This document shows, one piece after another, positions 3,078-60,439 of a stretch of 64,000 bases of DNA; position 1 is the first letter of the stretch; each line of letters starts with the position of its first letter. Source of the DNA: Deferrisoma camini S3R1. Its GTDB lineage: Bacteria; Desulfobacterota; Deferrisomatia; Deferrisomatales; Deferrisomataceae. The stretch covers positions 1,637,014 through 1,701,013 of the forward strand of contig NZ_JAFN01000001.1 of assembly GCF_000526155.1 (NCBI RefSeq), read 5' to 3'. The notes under the pieces are model-generated. The model had not been told where the DNA came from. It searched no databases and was given only the letters and a program-made list of their open reading frames with translations. The translations under genes were made by a program, and so were the position numbers.

Positions 3078-3315
3078 TGTGAACCTAGCGTTCCGTTTCG
3101 CAAAAAATATACGGATTGCGGCGGTGGGGCTGGGGGCTCCGACGAAGCGCGACGGCCGAGCAGCTAGGGACGCCCGGCGCTAGGGGAGCGGCCGCGGCGC
3201 GTGCCCTCACGCGCCGCAGCGGACCGCGCCGAGGCGGCCCCTGCGAGGCCGTTCAGCGAAGGAGGGGCCCCTAGCCCCACCGCCAGGGAACACCGCGAAA
3301 TTTCCGAACCACGAC
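3078..3315. other. Intergenic stretch, no gene seen
   Basis: No convincing coding frame. The part nearest the PP-loop gene contains an A/T run with TATATT on the minus strand (about 3107-3112), which could be a -10 box for that gene, but no good -35 is visible. The rest is GC-rich and unremarkable up to the repeat copy that begins near 3316. Confidence 0.4.
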
Positions 3316-3394
3316 ACCAGCGGATAAACAGGCGCCATCGTTCCCTGCTCGGAGGGGCAAGGGGCCTGCCGGAGCGCCGGGCGCGGCGGTATCA
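3316..3394 (+). repeat. Short copy of dispersed element A
   Basis: Starts with CAGCGGATAAACAGGCG and carries the conserved core CTCGGAGGGGCAAGGGGCC, ending in GGTATCAG. The same core recurs near 6485, 15965, 38115 and 46395. On the minus strand the terminal CTGATACC supplies the TGA stop of the purine nucleoside phosphorylase gene. Compared with the 262-bp copy at 46363-46627 it lacks the middle. Confidence 0.85.
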
Positions 3395-5923: not shown

Positions 5924-6280
5924 ATGGCGGTGGGCCGCATCCTTTTCGTCGACGACGACGACAACATTCGGTTCTTGCTCCAAGAGGAACTGTCCTCGGC
6001 GGGGCACGAGGTGTTCGCCGCCGCCGACGGGCCCCAGGCCTTGCGGTTGCTGGACGACCGCTCTCCCGACCTCGTGATCCTCGACCTCAAGATGCCGGGC
6101 ATGGACGGCCTCGAGGTGCTTCGCCGGATCCGGGCGCGGTATCCGGAGATGCCGGTCGTGGTGTTCTCCGCGTTCTGCGAACCCGCCCGCGAGGCCTTGG
6201 CCCTGGGGGCCAACGGGTGCGTGGCCAAGTCCGCCGACCTCACCGAGCTGCATCAGCAGATCCGGCGATACTGCAGCTAG
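5924..6280 (+). CDS. Stand-alone receiver (CheY-like) response regulator
   Basis: A 118-residue receiver domain with no output domain. The acidic pocket (VDDDD, residues 9-13), the phospho-acceptor Asp54 in ILDLKMPGMDG, a Ser at the switch position (FSAF, S82, instead of the commoner Thr) and Lys102 (VAKSADL) are all present. The ATG at 5924 has AGGAAGGAG just upstream; the frame extends further 5' to 5882 but without a ribosome site. Single-domain receivers act by protein-protein contact in phosphorelays or at flagellar and pilus motors. No kinase gene is adjacent, so the partner is unknown. The stop TAG is followed at once by repeat element A. Confidence 0.88.
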   Translation: MAVGRILFVDDDDNIRFLLQEELSSAGHEVFAAADGPQALRLLDDRSPDLVILDLKMPGMDGLEVLRRIRARYPEMPVVVFSAFCEPAREALALGANGCVAKSADLTELHQQIRRYCS

Positions 6281-6281
6281 C

Positions 6282-6545
6282 AACCCGGCGACAGATTAGG
6301 CGCGTCACCTCGGAGGGTGGGGCAAGGCACCTGCCTCCGGCCGGGCGCGAAGCCGAGCATGAGATTCGCCGCGCAGGAACAGGACCGAAGAGCTGGTTAC
6401 ACGACAACTCGATGGAATCCGAGCCATTTCGCGGTCCGAGCGTCCGAGGCACTGCGCGGCGGGCTATGGGGCCGCGCCCGGCTCTCCGGCAGGTCCCTTG
6501 CCCCTCCGAGCAGGGAGCGATAGCGCCTGTTTATCCGCCGGGTTC
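6282..6545. repeat. Long copy of dispersed element A with inverted ends
   Basis: About 264 bp filling the gap between the receiver gene and the pfkB-family gene. Both ends carry the same motif in opposite orientation (AACCCGGCG at 6282; CGCCGGGTT at the right end). The interior is the inverse of the copy at 46363-46627, including TGCTCGGAGGGGCAAG and the GCGCGGCGAATCTCAT module. No protein is encoded. Confidence 0.85.
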
Positions 6546-6555
6546 ATAGCCCCCC

Positions 6556-9686: not shown

Positions 9687-9702
9687 AGGCCCCTTCAACA
9701 CA

Positions 9703-9866
9703 CGTCCGCCGGTGCCCCACGGGGCTGAAAAGGGAAGTGGGGTGAGAATCCCCCGCGGACCCGCCGCTGTGAGCGAGGACGACGGGCCACTGGTGCCACT
9801 GGCCGCTTCGCGGCTGGGAAGGCGGCCCCGAGGACGAATCGCGAGCCAGAAGACCTGCCGGACGGA
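9703..9866 (+). ncRNA. Cobalamin (B12) riboswitch aptamer
   Basis: The conserved B12-box elements appear in order: GGTGCC (9711), GGGAAGTGGGGTGAGAATC, CCGCCGCTGTGA, CCACTGGTGCCACTGG, GGGAAGGCG and GAGCCAGAAGACCTGCC. The outer stem pairs GTCCGCCGG with CCGGACGG. It lies upstream of an operon for corrinoid uptake and synthesis, which fits repression when adenosylcobalamin is plentiful. Confidence 0.93.
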
Positions 9867-9933
9867 CTCCCCTTGCACGCAGCTCCCCGGGTGGATCGGG
9901 AGAGAGGGGAAATCGGGTGCTTCGAATACGGGA

Positions 9934-9963: not shown

Positions 9964-10082
9964 GTCGCAGAGGCCCCAACACGGGGCCTTCGCCTCACCC
10001 CTTCGGGGATTCGCGGCCTTCCGACCAACGACCGCTGTTACGAACTTAACCGGAAAGCCCCCTTCGGCCCTGGGGGCCCTAC

Positions 10083-10425
10083 GACGGGGAGAGTAACTTT
10101 CCCTGAACCGGGTAGTTGCGGCGGGCACGGGGCCTGCTTCCGGCCGCGCGCGAAGCCGGGCACCGAGATTCGCCGCGCAGGCACGAGGCATCAGCGGTGG
10201 CTTCATGACCGTTCGGCCGGCACGAACGATTTCGCGGTGCGAACGTGGGAGGCCCTGCGCGGCGAGCCAAGGAGCCGCGCGGCGCTCCAGCAGACCCCGT
10301 GCCCCCTAGCTTTGGCGCGGTTCCAGAGCCGCCCGGCCGCCCAGCTGCCTAGCCGCCGAGCGGGCCGAAGGCCCCAGACCGACGACCGTTGACCGTTGAC
10401 CGAAGACCGTTGACCGAAGTTACGA
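10083..10425. repeat. Mosaic of dispersed elements A and B
   Basis: The 470 bases between the riboswitch terminator and the first transporter gene hold no gene. From 10083 to about 10300 the sequence matches the interior of element A (CGAAGCCGGGCAC, ATTCGCCGCGCAGGC, GAGGCCCTGCGCGGCG). From about 10300 to 10425 it matches the outer half of element B (GCCTAGCCGCC, GCGGGCCGAAGGCCCC) followed by ACCGTTGACCG iterations. It lies inside the untranslated leader of a riboswitch-controlled transcript. Confidence 0.75.
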
Positions 10426-11331: not shown

Positions 11332-12062
11332 ACGGGGTGAGGGGTGTCCTGTACCGGGAGCTGCGCATCTACCGCAGGCGCTGGAAGAAGCACCTGGCCT
11401 CCTACGCGGTGTCGCCGTTCCTGTTCCTGGTGGTGTTCGGCTGGGGCCTCGGCCGGCACGTCGAGTTCGACGGGGTGGGCTACCTGGCCTTCATGATCCC
11501 GGGGCTGGCCACCATGGCCAGCATGACCCAGAGCTACGGCACGGCCACCGAGATCAACATCGCCCGGTTCTACTGGCGCATCTTCGAGGAGTTCCAGATG
11601 GCGCCGATCCCGGCCTGGGAGATCACCCTCGGCGAGGTGGTGTACGGCATGCTCCGGGGGATCGCGGCGGCGGTGATCGTGTACCTGCTGGCCTGGCCGT
11701 TCGGCATCCGGCCTCCGGCCAGCCCCCAAGTGGCCGGGTTCTTCCTGCTCCACACCTTCACCTTTGCCTCGGCCGCGGTCACGGCCGCCATGGTGGTGCG
11801 CAGTCACGCCGACCAGGGGCACATCAACACGTTTTTCATCGTGCCCATGTCGTTCCTGTGCGGCACCTTCTTCCCCCTGGATCGCCTGCCCGGGTGGGCC
11901 CAGACCATCGCCTACGGCCTGCCGCTGACCCACTCGAGCCTGGTGATCCGGGCGGCCAGCCTGGGCACCCCCGTGCCCGGGATCAATGTGGTCGCCCTGA
12001 CCGGCTTCGCCGCGGTCTTCTTCGGCTCGGCCGTGTGGGCGGTGAGGAGGAGCAGCTGTTGA
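11328..12062 (+). CDS. ABC-2 type transporter permease
   Basis: A 244-residue membrane protein with about six helices, of the NodJ/DrrB class. The conserved FLCGTFFPLDRLP segment before the last helices is the ABC-2 signature. It starts at GTG 11328 inside the ATPase stop codon, giving a complete two-gene exporter. The cobI gene follows after 305 bases of repeat sequence, on the same strand, without a visible terminator. Confidence 0.85.
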
Positions 12063-12367
12063 CCCGGCGACAGAACAGGCTCGTTTTTCCGGGGGATGGG
12101 AGCTGGTTCCGGCCGTGCGTGAGTTGCAACATCCGACTTACGCTGCATCCGACACTCAGCCGATGCTCGCCTTGCCGACGGACCACGAGGCGCTCTCGCG
12201 GATCGGGCCACAACAGCGCTTTGCAGGCCGGGCTGAGTGCCGGATGCGGCGACTCTAGGAGCCACGCCCGGCGCTCCACCAGATCCCATGCCTCCGGGTC
12301 ACCAGCGTGTCGTTGGGTCCCCGACCGACGACCGTAGACCAGCGACCGACAAATCAGGAGCCCCGTC
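12063..12367 (+). repeat. Repeat-filled gap with a long inverted repeat
   Basis: Begins at the permease stop with CCCGGCGACAGAACAG, a variant of the element A end also seen at 6282. It contains a 20-base inverted repeat (12142-12161 against 12231-12250, around GCATCCGACACTCAG / CTGAGTGCCGGATGC) with a ~70-base loop, and ends in GACGACCGTAGACCAGCGACC iterons. No gene is present. Confidence 0.65.
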
Positions 12368-15906: not shown

Positions 15907-16012
15907 GCGAGGAGCGCTCCTCATTACCATGAACCCGGCGGAAAAACAGACCCTATCGCTCCCTGCTCGGAGGGGCAAGGGGCCTGCCCCCGGCACTCGC
16001 GCCCGGCCGGAA
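15907..16012 (+). repeat. Truncated copy of element A
   Basis: After the palindrome at the btuF stop, GAACCCGGCGGAAAAACAG and CTGCTCGGAGGGGCAAGGGG match the left end of element A. The copy decays after about 80 bases. Confidence 0.75.
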
Positions 16013-22157: not shown

Positions 22158-22462
22158 GAGGTCGTCGGTCGTCGGTGGGGGGCCTTCGGCCCGCTAGGCG
22201 GCTAGGCAGCTAGGCGGCCGGGCGGCTCTCGGATCGCGCCCACGCTCGGGGGTATGGGTTTCAGGGATCAGAATTCAGCGGACCGAAGACAGGAAAAGAC
22301 CATGGGCGCACTCCTGCATCCGACGTTGCACCCTGTTCTCTGAACTCTGTCTTCTGGCTCCTGAACCGCAGGCCCCATGCCTCCGGCGTGAAGGCTCCGG
22401 ACCAACGAACGTCACCCTATCCCGTTGTGGGGCCCCGCAGGGGCCTGACGAGGCCTCCCGGC
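22158..22462. repeat. Element B, left inverted copy
   Basis: A ~300-bp sequence that reappears inverted at 24806-25103 with only scattered mismatches. Modules include GGGGGGCCTTCGGCCCGCTA, TTCAGGGATCAGAATTCAGC, GACCGAAGACAGGAAAAGAC, CATCCGACGTTGCACCCTG and CCCCGCAGGGGCCTGACG. The two copies bracket the tex gene. No open frame or transposase is seen. Confidence 0.9.
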
Positions 22463-22527
22463 CTCCTAGCGTTCTAGTGGGCCGAAAGCCCGACCTCAAA
22501 GTAAGGTTGCCGAGGTGCCGGGGCGTG

Positions 22528-24786
22528 TCAAGGCCGCCGGCCGGCCGGGCTCACCCGGTACCGTTGGGCGAGCCTAGCCTTCCAGTCGTCCGGTTTCGGG
22601 TCGCGCCCTCCCTTGCGGGGCCGGGACCGCGGCCGATCCGACCGCATGGACAGCGAGATCCGGCCCCGGTCCCGATCCACCCCGAGCACCCGCACCCTGA
22701 CCTTCTGGCCCACCCGAACCACCTCGGCCGGGTCTTCCACATACCGGTCGGCCAGCTCCGACACGTGCACCAGCCCGTCCTGGTGGACCCCCACGTCCAC
22801 GAACGCCCCGAACCGGGTCACGTTGGTCACCACCCCCGGCAGCTCCATGCCCTCGCGAAGGTCGTCCAGGGTCTGGACCCGCTCGTCGAACCGCACCGGA
22901 TCGAACGCCTCCCGGGGGTCCCGGCCGGGCTTTCGGAGCTCGTCGAGGATGTCGCGCACGGTGGGCAGGCCCACGTCCCCCTCCACGTAGGCCTCGGGCC
23001 GGATCCGGTCGATCAGCCGGTCGTTCCCGATGAGGTCCGCCACCGGCACGCCGAGGTCCCGGGCCATCCGCTCCACCAACCCGTAGCGCTCGGGGTGCAC
23101 GGCCGAGGCGTCCAGGGGATCCTCCCCACCAGGGATCCGCAGGAACCCGGCGGCCTGCTCGAAGGCCTTGGGCCCCAGCCGGGGCACCTCCAGTAGGTCC
23201 TGCCGTTGCCGGAACGGACCCCGCTCCCGGCGGTGGGCCACGATGTTTCGGGCCAGCCCCTCGCCCACCCCGGCCACGTACCTGAGCAGCGACGGGCTCG
23301 CCGTGTTCACGTCGACCCCCACCCGGTTCACGCACCACTCCACCACCCGGTCCAGGGCCTTCTTGAGCCGGGTCTGGTTCACGTCGTGCTGGTACTGGCC
23401 CACGCCGATAGACTTGGGGTCGATCTTCACGAGCTCGGCCAACGGATCCTGGAACCGACGACCGATGCTCACGGCCCCCCGAACCGACACGTCCAGGTCC
23501 GGGAACTCCTCCCGGGCCACGGCCGAGGCGGAGTACACGCTCGCCCCGGCCTCGGACACCATGAGCACCCGGCATCCCCACTCGGGGTGCTCGGCCAGGA
23601 GCGCCCGCACGAACCCCTCGGTCTCCCGGCCCGCGGTGCCGTTGCCCACCACCACGAACTCGGGCTTGTGGCGGGAGATCAGGCCGGCCAGGGTCTGCCG
23701 GGCCTCGTCCACCCGATTCTGGGGCGGATGGGGATAGATCGGCTTCCACTCCAGCAGATCGCCGACCTCGTCGAGGGCCACGACCTTGCAGCCGGTGCGA
23801 AAGCCCGGGTCGATCGCCACCACCCGCCGTCTGCCGGCCGGGCTCTCGAGTAGCAGGTGACGCAGGTTCTCGGCGAACACCTCGATGGCGGCCTCGTCCG
23901 CCCGCGCCTTGAGCTCGACCCGCACGTCCACCTCAATCGAGGGGGCCAGGAGCCGGCGGTAGGCGTCTCCCACGGCCTCGCGCACAAACCCGGCCCAGAT
24001 CGACCCCGGGGTCTTGACGAACCGCCGCTCCAGGTCCGCCAGGATCTCCGCCTCCGGCGCCTCGACCCACACCCGCAGCACCCCCTCGTCCTCACCCCGC
24101 CGCACGGCGAGCACCCGGTGGGACGGCACCTTGGGAATCGCCTCCCGGAACTCGTAGTAGGCCTCGAACTTGGTGCGCTCGGCCTTGCGCTCGGGCAGGA
24201 CCTCGCTCCGGAGGAACCCCTTCTCCCAGGTGAGCCGCCGGACCCCGGCCCGGGCCTCGGGGTCGTGGGCCACGGTCTCAGCCACGATGTAGGCGGCCTG
24301 GGCCAGGGCCTCGTCGGGGGTGGTCACCTCCCGTTCGGGGTCCACGAAGGCCGAGGCGATCTCGCGTACGTCGCCCCGGAGGTCTTCCTGGGCCAGGGCC
24401 CGCAGGGCCAGGGGCTCGAGACCCCGCTCCCGGGCCACGTCGGCCCTGGTCCGGCGGCGGGGCTTGAACGGAAGGTAAAGGTCCTCCACCTCCTGCTTGG
24501 TGGCGGCGGCCCGGATGCGGGCGGCCAGCTCGTCGGTGAGCTTGCCTTGGGCCTCGATGCTCTCGATCACCGCGGCCTTGCGATCCTCGAGCTCGGCCAG
24601 GTAGCCGTACCGATCCCAGACGGCCGCGATGGCCACCTCGTCGAGGCTGCCCGTGGCCTCCTTTCGGTAGCGGGCCACGAACGGGATCGTGGCCCCCCCG
24701 GACAGCAGCTCCACCACGGCCCGGACCTGCCCGGGCCGCAGCCCCTGGTCCGCGGCCACCTGCCGCAGCAACGACTCCTGAATCAA
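22528..24786 (-). CDS. tex: Tex-family S1 RNA-binding transcription accessory protein
   Basis: A 752-residue protein with the complete Tex architecture: N-terminal helical region, YqgF/RNase H-like domain (VVAIDPGFRTGCKVVALD), two helix-hairpin-helix segments (NTASPSLLRYVAGVGEGLARNIV, RLGPKAFEQAAGFLR) and a C-terminal S1 domain (GMELPGVVTNVTRFGAFVDVG). It binds RNA and influences transcription and stress tolerance. The start is TTG 24786 with CAGGAG eight bases upstream; no in-frame ATG fits. That ribosome site lies at the very edge of the right inverted repeat, so the repeat forms most of the leader. Confidence 0.93.
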   Translation of the reverse strand: MIQESLLRQVAADQGLRPGQVRAVVELLSGGATIPFVARYRKEATGSLDEVAIAAVWDRYGYLAELEDRKAAVIESIEAQGKLTDELAARIRAAATKQEVEDLYLPFKPRRRTRADVARERGLEPLALRALAQEDLRGDVREIASAFVDPEREVTTPDEALAQAAYIVAETVAHDPEARAGVRRLTWEKGFLRSEVLPERKAERTKFEAYYEFREAIPKVPSHRVLAVRRGEDEGVLRVWVEAPEAEILADLERRFVKTPGSIWAGFVREAVGDAYRRLLAPSIEVDVRVELKARADEAAIEVFAENLRHLLLESPAGRRRVVAIDPGFRTGCKVVALDEVGDLLEWKPIYPHPPQNRVDEARQTLAGLISRHKPEFVVVGNGTAGRETEGFVRALLAEHPEWGCRVLMVSEAGASVYSASAVAREEFPDLDVSVRGAVSIGRRFQDPLAELVKIDPKSIGVGQYQHDVNQTRLKKALDRVVEWCVNRVGVDVNTASPSLLRYVAGVGEGLARNIVAHRRERGPFRQRQDLLEVPRLGPKAFEQAAGFLRIPGGEDPLDASAVHPERYGLVERMARDLGVPVADLIGNDRLIDRIRPEAYVEGDVGLPTVRDILDELRKPGRDPREAFDPVRFDERVQTLDDLREGMELPGVVTNVTRFGAFVDVGVHQDGLVHVSELADRYVEDPAEVVRVGQKVRVRVLGVDRDRGRISLSMRSDRPRSRPRKGGRDPKPDDWKARLAQRYRVSPAGRRP

Positions 24787-24805
24787 ATGAACACTCCTGG
24801 GGAAA

Positions 24806-25103
24806 CCCCGTCAGGCCCCTGCGGGGCCGGGCAACGGGGAAGGGTAACTCTCGTTGGTCCGGGGCCATTGCCGGCAGCGGGGCATGGGGCCTGCGGTTCA
24901 GGAGCCAGAAGACAGAGTTCAGAGAACAGGGTGCAACGTCGGATGCAGGAGTGCGCCCGTGGTCTTTTCCTGTCTTCGGTCCGCTGAATTCTGATCCCTG
25001 AAACCCATGCCCCCGAGCGTTGGCGCGATTCGAGAGCCGCCCGGCCGCCTAGCTGCCTAGCCGCCTAGCGGGCCGAAGGCCCCCCACCGACGACCAACGA
25101 CCG
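24806..25103. repeat. Element B, right inverted copy
   Basis: The inverse of 22158-22462, including GGTGCAACGTCGGATGCAGG and CGGTCCGCTGAATTCTGATC. A partial related copy lies at 57540-57665. It ends about 30 bases before the DUF6485 stop. Confidence 0.9.
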
Positions 25104-28306: not shown

Positions 28307-28727
28307 GGCGCGCTTCGCGCGCCGCGGGGACGCTAGGACGTTGGGAAGTTAGGAGGCTAGGAGGCCGTTCGTCGGTAAGTCGTAGGTCGTAGGTGGTTGA
28401 AGGTCAACGACGAACGACCTACGACCGGCGACCTACGGAACTTCACACGACGAACGGCAGTTCAACGATTCACGATTCCCGGCTTCTGAGCCACTGATCA
28501 ACACAGATTCACACTGATTTGGGGGAGCTTTGAACTTGGATTGGCACCGCAACACAACAAGGGCGCACAAACGCACTGACGCACATCTAACGCTATGGTG
28601 CCGTAACACAAGAACAGGGTGCGGCGCATCAGCGTTTCAGGATTCGTGACAAGAGATTTCCAATACGCTGGGCCCAGTCTGTGTTCATCTGTGTAAATCT
28701 GTGGCCAAAATCATTCACGGATTTCCC
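28307..28727. repeat. Repeat island between nuoD and nuoH
   Basis: 421 bases with no gene. 28330-28475 holds family C heptamers in palindromic order (GTCGTAGGTCGTAGGTGG ... CGACCTACGACCGGCGACC). 28495-28710 is a low-GC stretch flanked by inversely related motifs, ACACAGATTCACACTGATTT and GTGTTCATCTGTGTAAATC. It lies exactly where nuoEFG sit in standard operons. Confidence 0.75.
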
Positions 28728-29739: not shown

Positions 29740-30246
29740 ATGATCCGCTACTTCCGCGAGATCTTCGAAGGGCTGTGGTCGTTGCTGGTGGGGCTGAAGG
29801 TCACGGGCCGGTTCGCCCTGGCCCCCACCGTGACCACCCACTACCCGTTCGACGAGCTGGAGGTGACCCCCAACTACCGGGGCCACATCGACCTGGTGGT
29901 GAACCCGAAGACGGGCAAGGACAAGTGCATCGTGTGCATGATGTGCCAGCGGGCCTGCCCCTCCGGGTGCATCACGGTGAAGGGCCAGAAGCCCGAGGGC
30001 GCCAAGAAACGGGTGCTCACCGAGTACCGCCTGGACTTCACCAAGTGCAGCCTGTGCGGCAACTGCGTGGAGGCCTGCCCCACCTCGGCGATCGAGTTCT
30101 CCCACGAGTACAACATCGCCGGCACCAGCCGCCACGACTTCCACTACGACCTGGTGGAGCGGTTCCGGGACCGATGCCGGGCCCTGGGCGTGGAGCCCAA
30201 GATCGCCGACCTGACGCCGGTGGCGTCGAAGCCGCCGGAAAGCTAG
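29740..30246 (+). CDS. nuoI: NADH-quinone oxidoreductase subunit I
   Basis: A 168-residue ferredoxin-like subunit with two [4Fe-4S] sites: CIVCMMCQRACP (C63, C66, C69, C73) and CSLCGNCVEACP (C103, C106, C109, C113). In a complex without NuoEFG these clusters are the likely entry point for electrons, perhaps from ferredoxin. The stop TAG lies in an AGCTAGGA tandem repeat that fills the next gap. Confidence 0.95.
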   Translation: MIRYFREIFEGLWSLLVGLKVTGRFALAPTVTTHYPFDELEVTPNYRGHIDLVVNPKTGKDKCIVCMMCQRACPSGCITVKGQKPEGAKKRVLTEYRLDFTKCSLCGNCVEACPTSAIEFSHEYNIAGTSRHDFHYDLVERFRDRCRALGVEPKIADLTPVASKPPES

Positions 30247-30431
30247 GAAGCTAGGAAGCTGGGAGGCTAGGAGGCTGGGAAGCGAAAAGGCCGTTCGTCG
30301 CAGGTCGTTGGTCGTAGGTCGTAGGTGGTAGAAGTTCAACAACGAACGACGAACGACCGACGACGAACGACAACTCAACGACTTACGACTCACGATTCAC
30401 GACTCACGATTCACGACTCACGGACCCAGAC
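30247..30431. repeat. AGCTAGGA tandem units and family C iterons
   Basis: Starts inside the nuoI stop with GCTAGGAAGCTAGGAAGC, then GTCGTAGGTCGTAGGTGG, AACGAACGACGAACGACC, and alternating ACTCACGATTCACG units up to the nuoJ start region. Confidence 0.8.
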
Positions 30432-34807: not shown

Positions 34808-34958
34808 TCGTAGGTCGTAGGTCGCAGGTCGCAGGTCGTCGGTCGTAGGTCGTAGGTCGTAGGTCGTTGCAGTTCAACCACCAACGACGAACGACCAGCG
34901 ACCTACGGCAGTTCAGCCATTCACGATTCACGGCCCTTATCACCGCAAGGTTTTGCCC
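34808..34958. repeat. Family C heptamer iterons before nuoM
   Basis: About eight units of GGTCGTA or GGTCGCA from the stop codon on, then GCAGTTCAACCACCAACGACG, AACGACCAGCGACC and ATTCACGATTCACGG. The same order of modules occurs at 28330 and 30280. Confidence 0.82.
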
Positions 34959-36660: not shown

Positions 36661-38076
36661 ATGGCCTTTGCACACGAAACCGTTCTGATCCTGAGCTGCC
36701 TGGCCCTGTTTGCCCTCACCCTGGTCCACGTGCGGCCCGGCACGGCCCGGGCCGCGGCCCTGGGGCTGTCGGCCCTGGCCGTGGTCACGGCCCTGTGGGG
36801 CGTGGGTGCCCAGGGGGAGCTGTTCTTCGGGGCCTACCGGGTGGATGCGTTCAGCCAAGGCGTGAAGCTGCTGCTGGCCGTGGGGTTCTTCCTGGCCGTT
36901 GCGTTCGGCGAGGGCGTCCGGGGCATCGAGGCGGAGCACGAGCCCGAGTACTTCCTGTTCCTGGCGGTGAGCGTGCTGGGCCTGACCTTCCTGGCCAGCG
37001 GGGTGGAGCTCCTCACCATCTACATCGCCCTGGAGCTCTCGTCCTACTCCCTGTACATCCTGGTGCCCCTGCGCCGACACGAGCACATCCACCAGGTGGA
37101 GGCCGGCATCAAGTACGTTCTGTTCGGGGCCATGGCCTCGGGGGTCAGCCTGTTCGGCATGAGCTACGTGTTCGGCCTGGCCCACACCACCCGGGTGGAC
37201 GACCTGCTGCGGCTGTACCCCGAGCTGGTGTCGTCCCCCCTGGGGCTGATGGGCCTGACCCTGATGCTGGGCGGGTTCTTCTACAAGTTGGCGCTCTTTC
37301 CGTTCCACTTCTGGACCCCGGACATCTACCAGGGCGCGGCCAACGAGACCTCGGGGGTGATCGCCACCCTGCCCAAGGTGGGCGCGGTGGCCGTGCTGAT
37401 CCGGCTCACCGGCCTGGGGGCGGAGTCCGCCGGGTTCGCCACGGTGCTCACCCTGCTGGCCGTGCTCTCCATGACCTACGGCAACCTGGCCGCCCTGGTC
37501 CAGGAGGATCTGAAGCGGCTGCTGGCCTACTCCTCCATCTCCCACGCCGGGTTCATGGTGGCCGGCATCCTGGCGGGCACCGTGCGGGGCTACGCCGGCG
37601 CGCTGTATTACGTGGCGGGCTACCTGATCATGAACCTGGCCCTGTTCCACGTGATCTACGCCCTGGCGCCCAGGGGGCAGAACATCACCTTGGCCGACCT
37701 GCGGGGCCTGTACCGGCGCTCGCCGATCCTCGCGCTGACCCTGGCCGTGGCCGCCTTCGGCCTGGCCGGCATCCCGCCGACTGTGGGGTTCGCCGGCAAG
37801 TTCTTCGTGCTCGCCGCGGCCTTGGAGAAGGGCCACCTGGCCCTGGTGATCATCGGCGCCCTGAACACCGCGATCTCGATCTACTACTACTTGAAGATGG
37901 TGAAGGCGGCCTACAGCCCTGAGGAGGAAGGAGGGGAGGCTCCCGCCGGCCGCGTGGCCCTGTCGCCCCTGGGCTGGGCCCTGGGCTGCGCCTTTGTGGT
38001 GAGCATCCTGGTGATCGGGGCGCTTCCGGGGCCGGTGCTGGGGTGGTTCCAGCGGGCCCTGTCCTGGGCGGCCTGA
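36661..38076 (+). CDS. nuoN: NADH-quinone oxidoreductase subunit N
   Basis: A 471-residue pump subunit: ALELSSYSLYILVPLRR, KYVLFGAMASGVSLFG, ALFPFHFWTPDIYQGA, LPKVGAVAVLIRL and RLLAYSSISHAGFMV. It is last in the complex I locus, separated from nuoM by 61 bases of ACGTCCTAACGTCCCAACG repeats. Its TGA stop is the first triplet of the inverted end of a repeat element (TGATACCAAGTT). Confidence 0.94.
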   Translation: MAFAHETVLILSCLALFALTLVHVRPGTARAAALGLSALAVVTALWGVGAQGELFFGAYRVDAFSQGVKLLLAVGFFLAVAFGEGVRGIEAEHEPEYFLFLAVSVLGLTFLASGVELLTIYIALELSSYSLYILVPLRRHEHIHQVEAGIKYVLFGAMASGVSLFGMSYVFGLAHTTRVDDLLRLYPELVSSPLGLMGLTLMLGGFFYKLALFPFHFWTPDIYQGAANETSGVIATLPKVGAVAVLIRLTGLGAESAGFATVLTLLAVLSMTYGNLAALVQEDLKRLLAYSSISHAGFMVAGILAGTVRGYAGALYYVAGYLIMNLALFHVIYALAPRGQNITLADLRGLYRRSPILALTLAVAAFGLAGIPPTVGFAGKFFVLAAALEKGHLALVIIGALNTAISIYYYLKMVKAAYSPEEEGGEAPAGRVALSPLGWALGCAFVVSILVIGALPGPVLGWFQRALSWAA

Positions 38077-38203
38077 TACCAAGTTACATTCAAAACCATT
38101 GGCCCCCTGCCCAGAGGGGCAAGGGGCCTGTCGGAGAGCCGGGCGCGGCCAGGTTCCTTGCCCCGCCCCCGGATACGTATCCGATGGATGGCAACTTGGT
38201 ATG
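38074..38203. repeat. Element A copy with inverted TGATACCAAGTT ends
   Basis: ~128 bp from TGATACCAAGTT to AACTTGGTAT. The core AGAGGGGCAAGGGGCC and GAGAGCCGGGCGCGGCC match other element A copies. The left end overlaps the nuoN stop. Confidence 0.85.
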
Positions 38204-38237
38204 AGATTCCGATCCGATCCGGACCTCGGATGGTCCG

Positions 38238-46346: not shown

Positions 46347-46362
46347 GCTCTGCAAGTTATTA

Positions 46363-46627
46363 CCCCAGCGGATAAACAGGCGCTATCGCTCCCTGCTCGG
46401 AGGGGCAAGGGGCCTGCCGGAGAGCCGGGCGCGGCCCCTTAGCTCGCCGCGCAGGGCCTCGGACGCTCGGACCACGAAATAGTTCGGATTCCACCGAGTT
46501 GTCGTGAAACCTGCTTTTCGGTGCCGTGCCTGCGCGGCGAATCTCATGCCCGGCTTCGCGCCCGGCCGGAGGCAGGTCCGTTGCCCCGTCCCCCGAAGGC
46601 TCTCGGTTTGAACGCAACTCGGTATCA
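46363..46627. repeat. Full-length copy of dispersed element A
   Basis: The best reference copy (~265 bp): CAGCGGATAAACAGGCGC at the left, then CTGCTCGGAGGGGCAAGGGG, GAGAGCCGGGCGCGGCC, CGCGCAGGGCCTCGGACGC, CACCGAGTTGTCGTGAAACC, GCGCGGCGAATCTCATGCC, and AACGCAACTCGGTATCAG at the right. The right end forms the stop of the TlpA-like gene on the minus strand. Confidence 0.88.
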
Positions 46628-57459: not shown

Positions 57460-57709
57460 TCGGAAACTCCGTGGGGAAAACCGGCCGGTAGCATCTGCAT
57501 CAACCCTGCAGCTTCCGCTGGAAGGCTGGGAGGCTTCCCAGTGACTTCGGTCTACGGTCGTCGGTCTACGGTCGTCGGTCTGGGGCCTTCGGCCCGCTAG
57601 GCGGCCGGGCAGCTAGGCAGTTGGGCGGCTCTCGGATCGCGCCAAAGCTCGGGGGCACGGGTCTGGCAATATTTTCGTTGGGATCTGTCAAAAAACGGAT
57701 TCCTCACCC
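57460..57709. repeat. Partial element B copy
   Basis: 57540-57665 matches the outer half of element B (TCTGGGGCCTTCGGCCCGCT, GGGCGGCTCTCGGATCGCGC), preceded by CGGTCTACGGTCGTCGGTC iterations. The remaining bases near 57665-57700 are AT-rich (GGCAATATTTTCG) and hold no gene. Confidence 0.7.
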
Positions 57710-60086: not shown

Positions 60087-60439
60087 GCCAACGTCGTTAG
60101 AAGGCTGGGAGGCCAGAAAGCTGGAAGGCTAAATGCAGTGCCTCCCGCGTCCGGACCGCGGAATGGTATCCATCTGTACGGAACTGTGATGAAACCAGCT
60201 CCCGTGTCTTGTGCCTGCGCGGCGAATCTCTACGCCCGGCTTCGCGCCCGGCCGGAAGCAGGCCCCATGCCCGCCGCCGGCGATGGCCCCGAACCAATGG
60301 AAGTTACCCTCGCTCCCCCGGCCCCGCAGGGTCCCGGGGGAGCGAGGGTGGCGGGCCCGCAACTTTTCCTTGAGTTTCGGGTATCCGCTGCCTCCCCCGT
60401 CCGAAAACCCGAAAACGGGCGTCCTTACCGGAGAGTTTC
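60087..60439. repeat. Element A interior plus B-type module
   Basis: 60133-60312 matches the interior of element A in forward order (GTGCCTGCGCGGCGAATCTC, CCCGGCTTCGCGCCCGGCC) and then a module shared with element B (GCAGGCCCCATGCC, AAGTTACCCTCGCTCCC). It is preceded by GCTGGGAGGCCAGAAAGCTG repeats after the tolC-family stop. No gene. Confidence 0.75.

Follow-up and report, generated by a model that had tools for sequence, protein, structure and literature searches.

Short repeats with exchangeable ends and hairpin cores in Deferrisoma camini S3R1, probably mobilised by IS630-family transposases

In the 64,000-nucleotide stretch of the Deferrisoma camini S3R1 genome analysed here (the window; G000:C1:1637014-1701013 of a genome that is a single contig of 4.24 Mb), a short element with inverted ends shares its modules with other places in the same stretch, but in varying combinations. 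The locus raises the questions of what kind of element this is, which transposase could have moved it, and how its copies became mosaic. The first-pass annotation had proposed a non-autonomous mobile element, or a large REP-like family, that recombines within itself. Motifs were counted as genome-wide pattern matches and compared with reversed-pattern controls, and about 120 loci chosen by pattern matches, short of every copy, were read as stretches, so that adjacency counts given below refer to these loci and are not genome totals. Two congeners, G001 and G002, whose drafts are 97% and 81% complete, served as comparison genomes.

The core 20-mer GAGATTCGCCGCGCAGGCAC has 147 matches genome-wide (control, 0), end 1 has 52 (control, 1), and the end 2 pattern CTGATACCAAGTTGCGTTCA has 108 (control, 0), which is far from a chance occurrence in two or three places. 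As a DNA query, 6282-6545 gave at least 45 matches, the best 40 of 287 candidates having been scored, and the plasmids and viral contigs searched with the core and the element gave no match. With copies of 66-293 bp and this number of core matches, the family has the size (about 30-300 bp) and high copy number of bacterial MITEs. Modules are present at all eight places previously grouped as one family (near 3316, 6282, 10083, 12063, 15931, 38074, 46363, and 60133). The copy named 6282-6545 is a real element, and its limits, 6280-6546, lie a few bases off; it has two end-1 ends, 38077-38201 has two end-2 ends, and a copy at about 46360-46624 has one end of each kind, just as had been described. 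Both kinds of end are real; a further type (CTAAKRCC..GTATTGCC) had been missed, and the copy near 10083 has neither of the two named ends.

Each copy can be read as a pair of ends with a long imperfect hairpin core. The end and flank modules are E1a, E1b, E2 (with variants), E5, and an octamer/terminator-type flank, E4; the core modules are i, ii, and v, and a further set, iii, was found with type-2-like ends only. Their order is end-core-end, and a border common to the copies, GGGGCAAGGG(A/G)CCTG, lies between end and core. In modular repeats of the BOX type, the order is fixed as boxA-boxB(n)-boxC. Positions are listed in Table 1.

Table 1. Positions in the window of family members, their modules, and their target duplications.
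Feature	Position	Strand	Remarks
TA target duplication, left	6278..6279		within TAG stop (6278-6280) of upstream frame ending ..RRYCS; G002 empty site with single TA
Type-1 MITE, 267 bp, E1b + core i + E1a	6280..6546	+	exact insertion by comparison with G002; ends like the IS-A inverted repeats
TA target duplication, right	6547..6548		G002 empty site comparison
Core i of the 6280-6546 copy	6315..6505	+	hairpin, 190-192 bp in most copies
Truncated copy, E1a + border + arm of core i	3315..3390	+	
Core i (10118-10307) between octamer/terminator-type flanks	10040..10410	+	G002: core v instead of core i, octamer-type flanks of the same kind
E1b + core ii	12059..12310	+	G002 at the same place: E1a + core v instead
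Truncated copy, E1a + border + inverted arm	15931..16010	+	
TGA target duplication, left	38074..38076		stop codon of NADH:quinone oxidoreductase/Mrp-type (antiporter-type) gene 36661-38076
Type-2 MITE, 125 bp deletion derivative, two E2 ends	38077..38201	+	absent from congener G001
TGA target duplication, right	38202..38204		
Hybrid copy, left E1a + core i + right E2	46360..46624	+	G002: E5-type left end, same right end
Partial copy, B side of core i + octamer-type flank E4b	60180..60309	-	
Core v + border with octamer-type flank, part of 222-bp inverted pair	22226..22381	+	
Second arm of 222-bp inverted pair, core v with octamer-type flanks	24842..25036	-	

Other features were noted beside these copies. 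A second intergenic repeat class, in which a GGGGCCTTCGGCCC hairpin is surrounded by octamers (GCTAGGCG / GCTAGGAA) and runs of the GGTCGTCGGTC type, occurs at 10296-10412, 22160-22260, 25004-25103, 57548-57662, 28313-28445, 30223-30394, and 34826-34932, and doubles as the flank for many core-i copies. The copy near 10083 has a cobalamin riboswitch (9693-9876; Rfam RF00174, 108.7 bits) just upstream. On the minus strand, a tex-like gene (22528-24786) stands between 222-bp inverted repeats that are 98% identical and contain core v with octamer-type flanks (22160-25102), and inversion or conversion could take place at this pair. Elements of about 220 bp at L063, L070, L074, and L075 form another MITE-like family, with TNA flanks, ends TACCAAGTCGCATTC / TACCAATTTGCGATCAAG, and a core of its own (GCGATTTGG..GGCCG).

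Among the end-1 matches, inverted pairs 1.1 kb apart represent an insertion sequence, IS-A, with four copies that are more than 99% identical mutually (G000:C1:3403288-3404388, 4028592-4029692, near 1209358, and 716556-719763). In the last of these (L033, G000:C1:715500-721000), the transposase gene is interrupted by about 2.1 kb of other DNA. The IS-A product of 345 aa matches DDE_3 and the IS630 model NF033545 (246.7 bits), and its termini, TTAACCCGG(C/T)G..AAATAGGCGCG, have TA on each side. Over 25 positions, the ends of the 267-bp element agree with the IS-A inverted repeats at 18-20, and none of 20000 shuffles of its left end reached 19 identities with the IS-A end. The TA target expected of an IS630-derived MITE is found for end 1 at the window copy and at three IS-A copies. 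G002 has an empty site, ..GATACTGCAGC TA GCCCCCCTC.., where the window reads ..GATACTGCAGC TA [267 bp] TA GCCCCCCTC..; since a single TA is present there, the element extends over 6280-6546 with a TA duplication. The same site is occupied by the 267-bp element in G001. Because the TA lies inside the TAG stop of the upstream frame, the stop was restored by the insertion. For other type-1 copies, insertion-free sites were found in G001 or G002; their flanks are often eroded, and in several the flanking TA pair is no longer clean.

The genome has a second IS630-family IS, IS-B, present as three copies of 1104 bp with TA flanks; its termini are CTAATACCTACAAAAGTATTGCC and CTAAGACCTTCAAAAGTATTGCC, and it scores 280.2 bits with NF033545. 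The third end type matches IS-B; it borders 268-bp MITEs at L004 and L040 in this genome and at L158 and L194 in G001, and has TA flanks in most copies.

Copies with two type-2 ends (66-293 bp) start with TACCAAGTTGC and have TNA flanks. The middle base is the same on the left and right in 36 of the 47 type-2 elements (17 expected, z 5.9), clean empty sites such as CACTAC TGA GGGC at L116 indicate a 3-bp duplication, and similar elements in relatives of other families have identical TNA flanks in 9 of 11 cases. The IS630 family is usually described with a TA target, from which end 2 departs with its 3-bp TNA. An IS5/PIF-like origin of end 2, considered on account of the TNA, was rejected, because the Desulfatibacillum ISs with end 2 encode an IS630-family transposase. 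In Desulfatibacillum alkenivorans, of the same phylum (Thermodesulfobacteriota, or Desulfobacterota), end-2 termini, which lie on separate contigs and were joined through identical overlapping coding sequence, flank an IS with a transposase spread over two reading frames across a run of A, the parts scoring 117.1 and 35.2 bits with NF033545. Its left termini follow TCA and TGA and its right termini precede TGA and TCA, which is consistent with two copies, each with a TNA duplication. The loci of this TNA-duplicating IS are L201, L203, L147, L159, and L160, and related ends are also present in G017 and G036, two genomes from other families. Complete IS relatives from betaproteobacterial genomes (L161, L162) were without end 2, and no IS with end-2 termini was found in the D. 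camini genome, all IS630 matches there being IS-A or IS-B.

The absence of a transposase noted in the first-pass annotation therefore holds for the copies themselves, but matching DDE transposases exist in two IS630-family ISs of the same genome and one of Desulfatibacillum. As in MITEs, the terminal inverted repeats are like those of autonomous ISs (end 1 of IS-A, the third end of IS-B, and end 2 of the Desulfatibacillum IS), the cognate transposases belong to the IS630 family by the scores given above, and TA or TNA duplications occur together with empty sites.

For the window element, the fold has an energy of -148.6 kcal/mol, with a z-score of -5.26 relative to shuffled sequences. This hairpin fold, the intergenic location, and the high copy number would also be expected of large REP/BIME-like repeats mobilised by a RAYT (tyrosine) transposase. 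REP/BIME units, however, are hairpins of 20-40 bp without target duplication, whereas the unit here is about 265 bp, with copies of 260-290 bp, and has TA and TNA target duplications with empty sites, ends of the IS630-family kind, and matching DDE transposases. We regard this part of the earlier proposal as extremely improbable.

Across 51 copies of core i, the 12-bp inner stem hardly varies, and one of the outer pairs occurs as AU (28), UA (17), CG (1), or GC (1), which could reflect structure or exchange between the hairpin arms. Many type-2 copies lie exactly on a stop codon that is regenerated by the duplication: 26 of the 37 type-2 duplications reading TGA or TAA terminate open frames 130 codons or longer, compared with 12-14% of all TGA/TAA in the window, and 25 of the 47 type-2 elements are involved in such stop-codon insertion. 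A near-invariant stem, a position with four pair types, and many copies directly 3' of stop codons would suit a host-beneficial RNA or terminator module whose spread is kept by selection. We consider this quite unlikely, as the presence or absence of copies varies between congeners, covariation is essentially limited to one pair, and no family of Rfam was matched, while choice of the TNA target together with loss of gene-disrupting insertions explains the stop-codon sites with no further assumptions. An argument for RNA function from covariation was likewise dropped, with only one pair clearly covarying.

The length of core i is 190-192 bp in nearly every extracted copy, regardless of the ends. 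In the loci read, its A side adjoins E1a 25 times and E2 15 times, and its B side adjoins E1b 12 times and E2 16 times; the corresponding counts for core ii are 2 and 9 on the A side and 2 and 11 on the B side, and core v is present with both kinds of end. The polarity of ends relative to core sides is kept in these loci with few exceptions. Hybrids with one end of each kind are found at L016, L019, L026, and L028 in addition to the window copy. On a tree built from 74 copies of core i, no fewer than five changes between end types 1 and 2 are required, and one set with an SH-aLRT of 95 mixes both; since resolution is poor (6 of 71 inner branches starred), this mixing gives support short of proof. 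Two families without later exchange are ruled out by the hybrids together with the mixed core tree. Mixed copies could also have arisen without homologous exchange, if one MITE inserted into another and deletions followed, and nested arrangements do exist at L038 (type-1 ends around a type-2 end), L107, L114, and L079. Repeated insertion and deletion would not yield the constant core length seen under most end combinations, and the mostly kept polarity and the hybrids having no leftover second end argue in the same direction, so that we judge this route rather unlikely.

The strongest sign of exchange between dispersed copies is given by in-place differences at three window loci, and they are taken as such because the surrounding genes are orthologous. 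Two of these loci differ from G002 in their cores (Table 1); at the hybrid locus, G001 has the same arrangement as the window, and G002 shares core i and the right end but not the left end. As G002 differs in an end, the core, or both at each of the three loci, modules have been replaced in place there, and recombination between dispersed copies is the most likely route. The hybrids, shared cores, and in-place differences thus bear out the earlier view of a non-autonomous mobile element that recombines within itself to give mixed copies.

Precise TA and TNA insertions, matching ISs, cores common to different ends, hybrids, and in-place orthologous differences are all observed, and on these grounds we consider it very probable that the family consists of bacterial MITEs whose ends and cores can be exchanged and which are moved by IS630-family (DDE) transposases acting in trans. 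These transposases would cut and paste the copies, and dispersed copies would swap ends or cores when homologous recombination or gene conversion takes place over the border GGGGCAAGGGRCCTG and the hairpin arms. A core gaining the ends of another IS could then be mobilised again as the IS repertoire turns over, and the short copies would be deletion derivatives of the hairpin. One hairpin core appears to be carried by several IS "engines" through recombination between copies.

Many MITEs of this family are present in both congeners, G001 and G002, and no IS630 transposase was found at 1e-8 in these incomplete drafts. The ISs present today may therefore differ from those that spread the MITEs, and either MITEs outlast ISs in the genus or the ISs lie in the missing parts of the drafts. 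We put forward, as a tentative possibility, that the hairpin core, rather than the pair of ends, is the lasting parasite, outliving each IS family because recombination among its copies repeatedly gives it the ends that the IS630-type transposase active at the time recognises.

These results bear on how MITEs stay mobile once the founding IS is lost, and the genus offers a test case in which the same cores are found with three IS630-type end sets, mixed copies exist, and sister species differ in their modules at some shared loci. A 3-bp TNA duplication made by an IS630-family IS, and insertion at stop codons that restores the stop, are further features of the system. In the literature searched, outside which most subscription journals lie, no report was found of one core set under three IS630-type end sets with in-place replacement.

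Partial likenesses to known systems can be listed. In the CMITEs of Acropora corals, the internal region is more conserved between families than the terminal repeats, as here, and the origin of the core is reported as unknown (PMC2872659); CMITEs are eukaryotic and piggyBac-like, with one terminal motif in all families (PMC2872659), whereas the present ends are those of distinct ISs whose target duplications differ, and replacement in place is seen. TIMEs of Pseudomonas are also mosaic and non-autonomous, with recombination between copies proposed, but they are Tn3-derived, make 5-6 bp duplications, and are usually single copy (PMC4133298). Correia elements of Neisseria are likewise short repeats with more than 100 copies and strain-dependent insertion, while core exchange between end sets of different ISs is not described in the part of the source consulted (PMC10969869). 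The nearest bacterial cases are MITEPlu5 with CCC-type IS630 ISs and RUP with IS630-Spn1. MITEPlu5, an ERIC-like element of Photorhabdus, shares the strong hairpin, the terminal-proximal CCC as in end 1, the TA target, and a high copy number (hundreds), but has mostly one length class (123 bp) and one end type (PMC6267812). RUP of Streptococcus pneumoniae is also short, with about 100 copies, ends resembling an IS630-family IS of the same genome, and a TA target; it is 107 bp long with one end type (PMC2229807), whereas here several cores are common to three IS630-type end sets.
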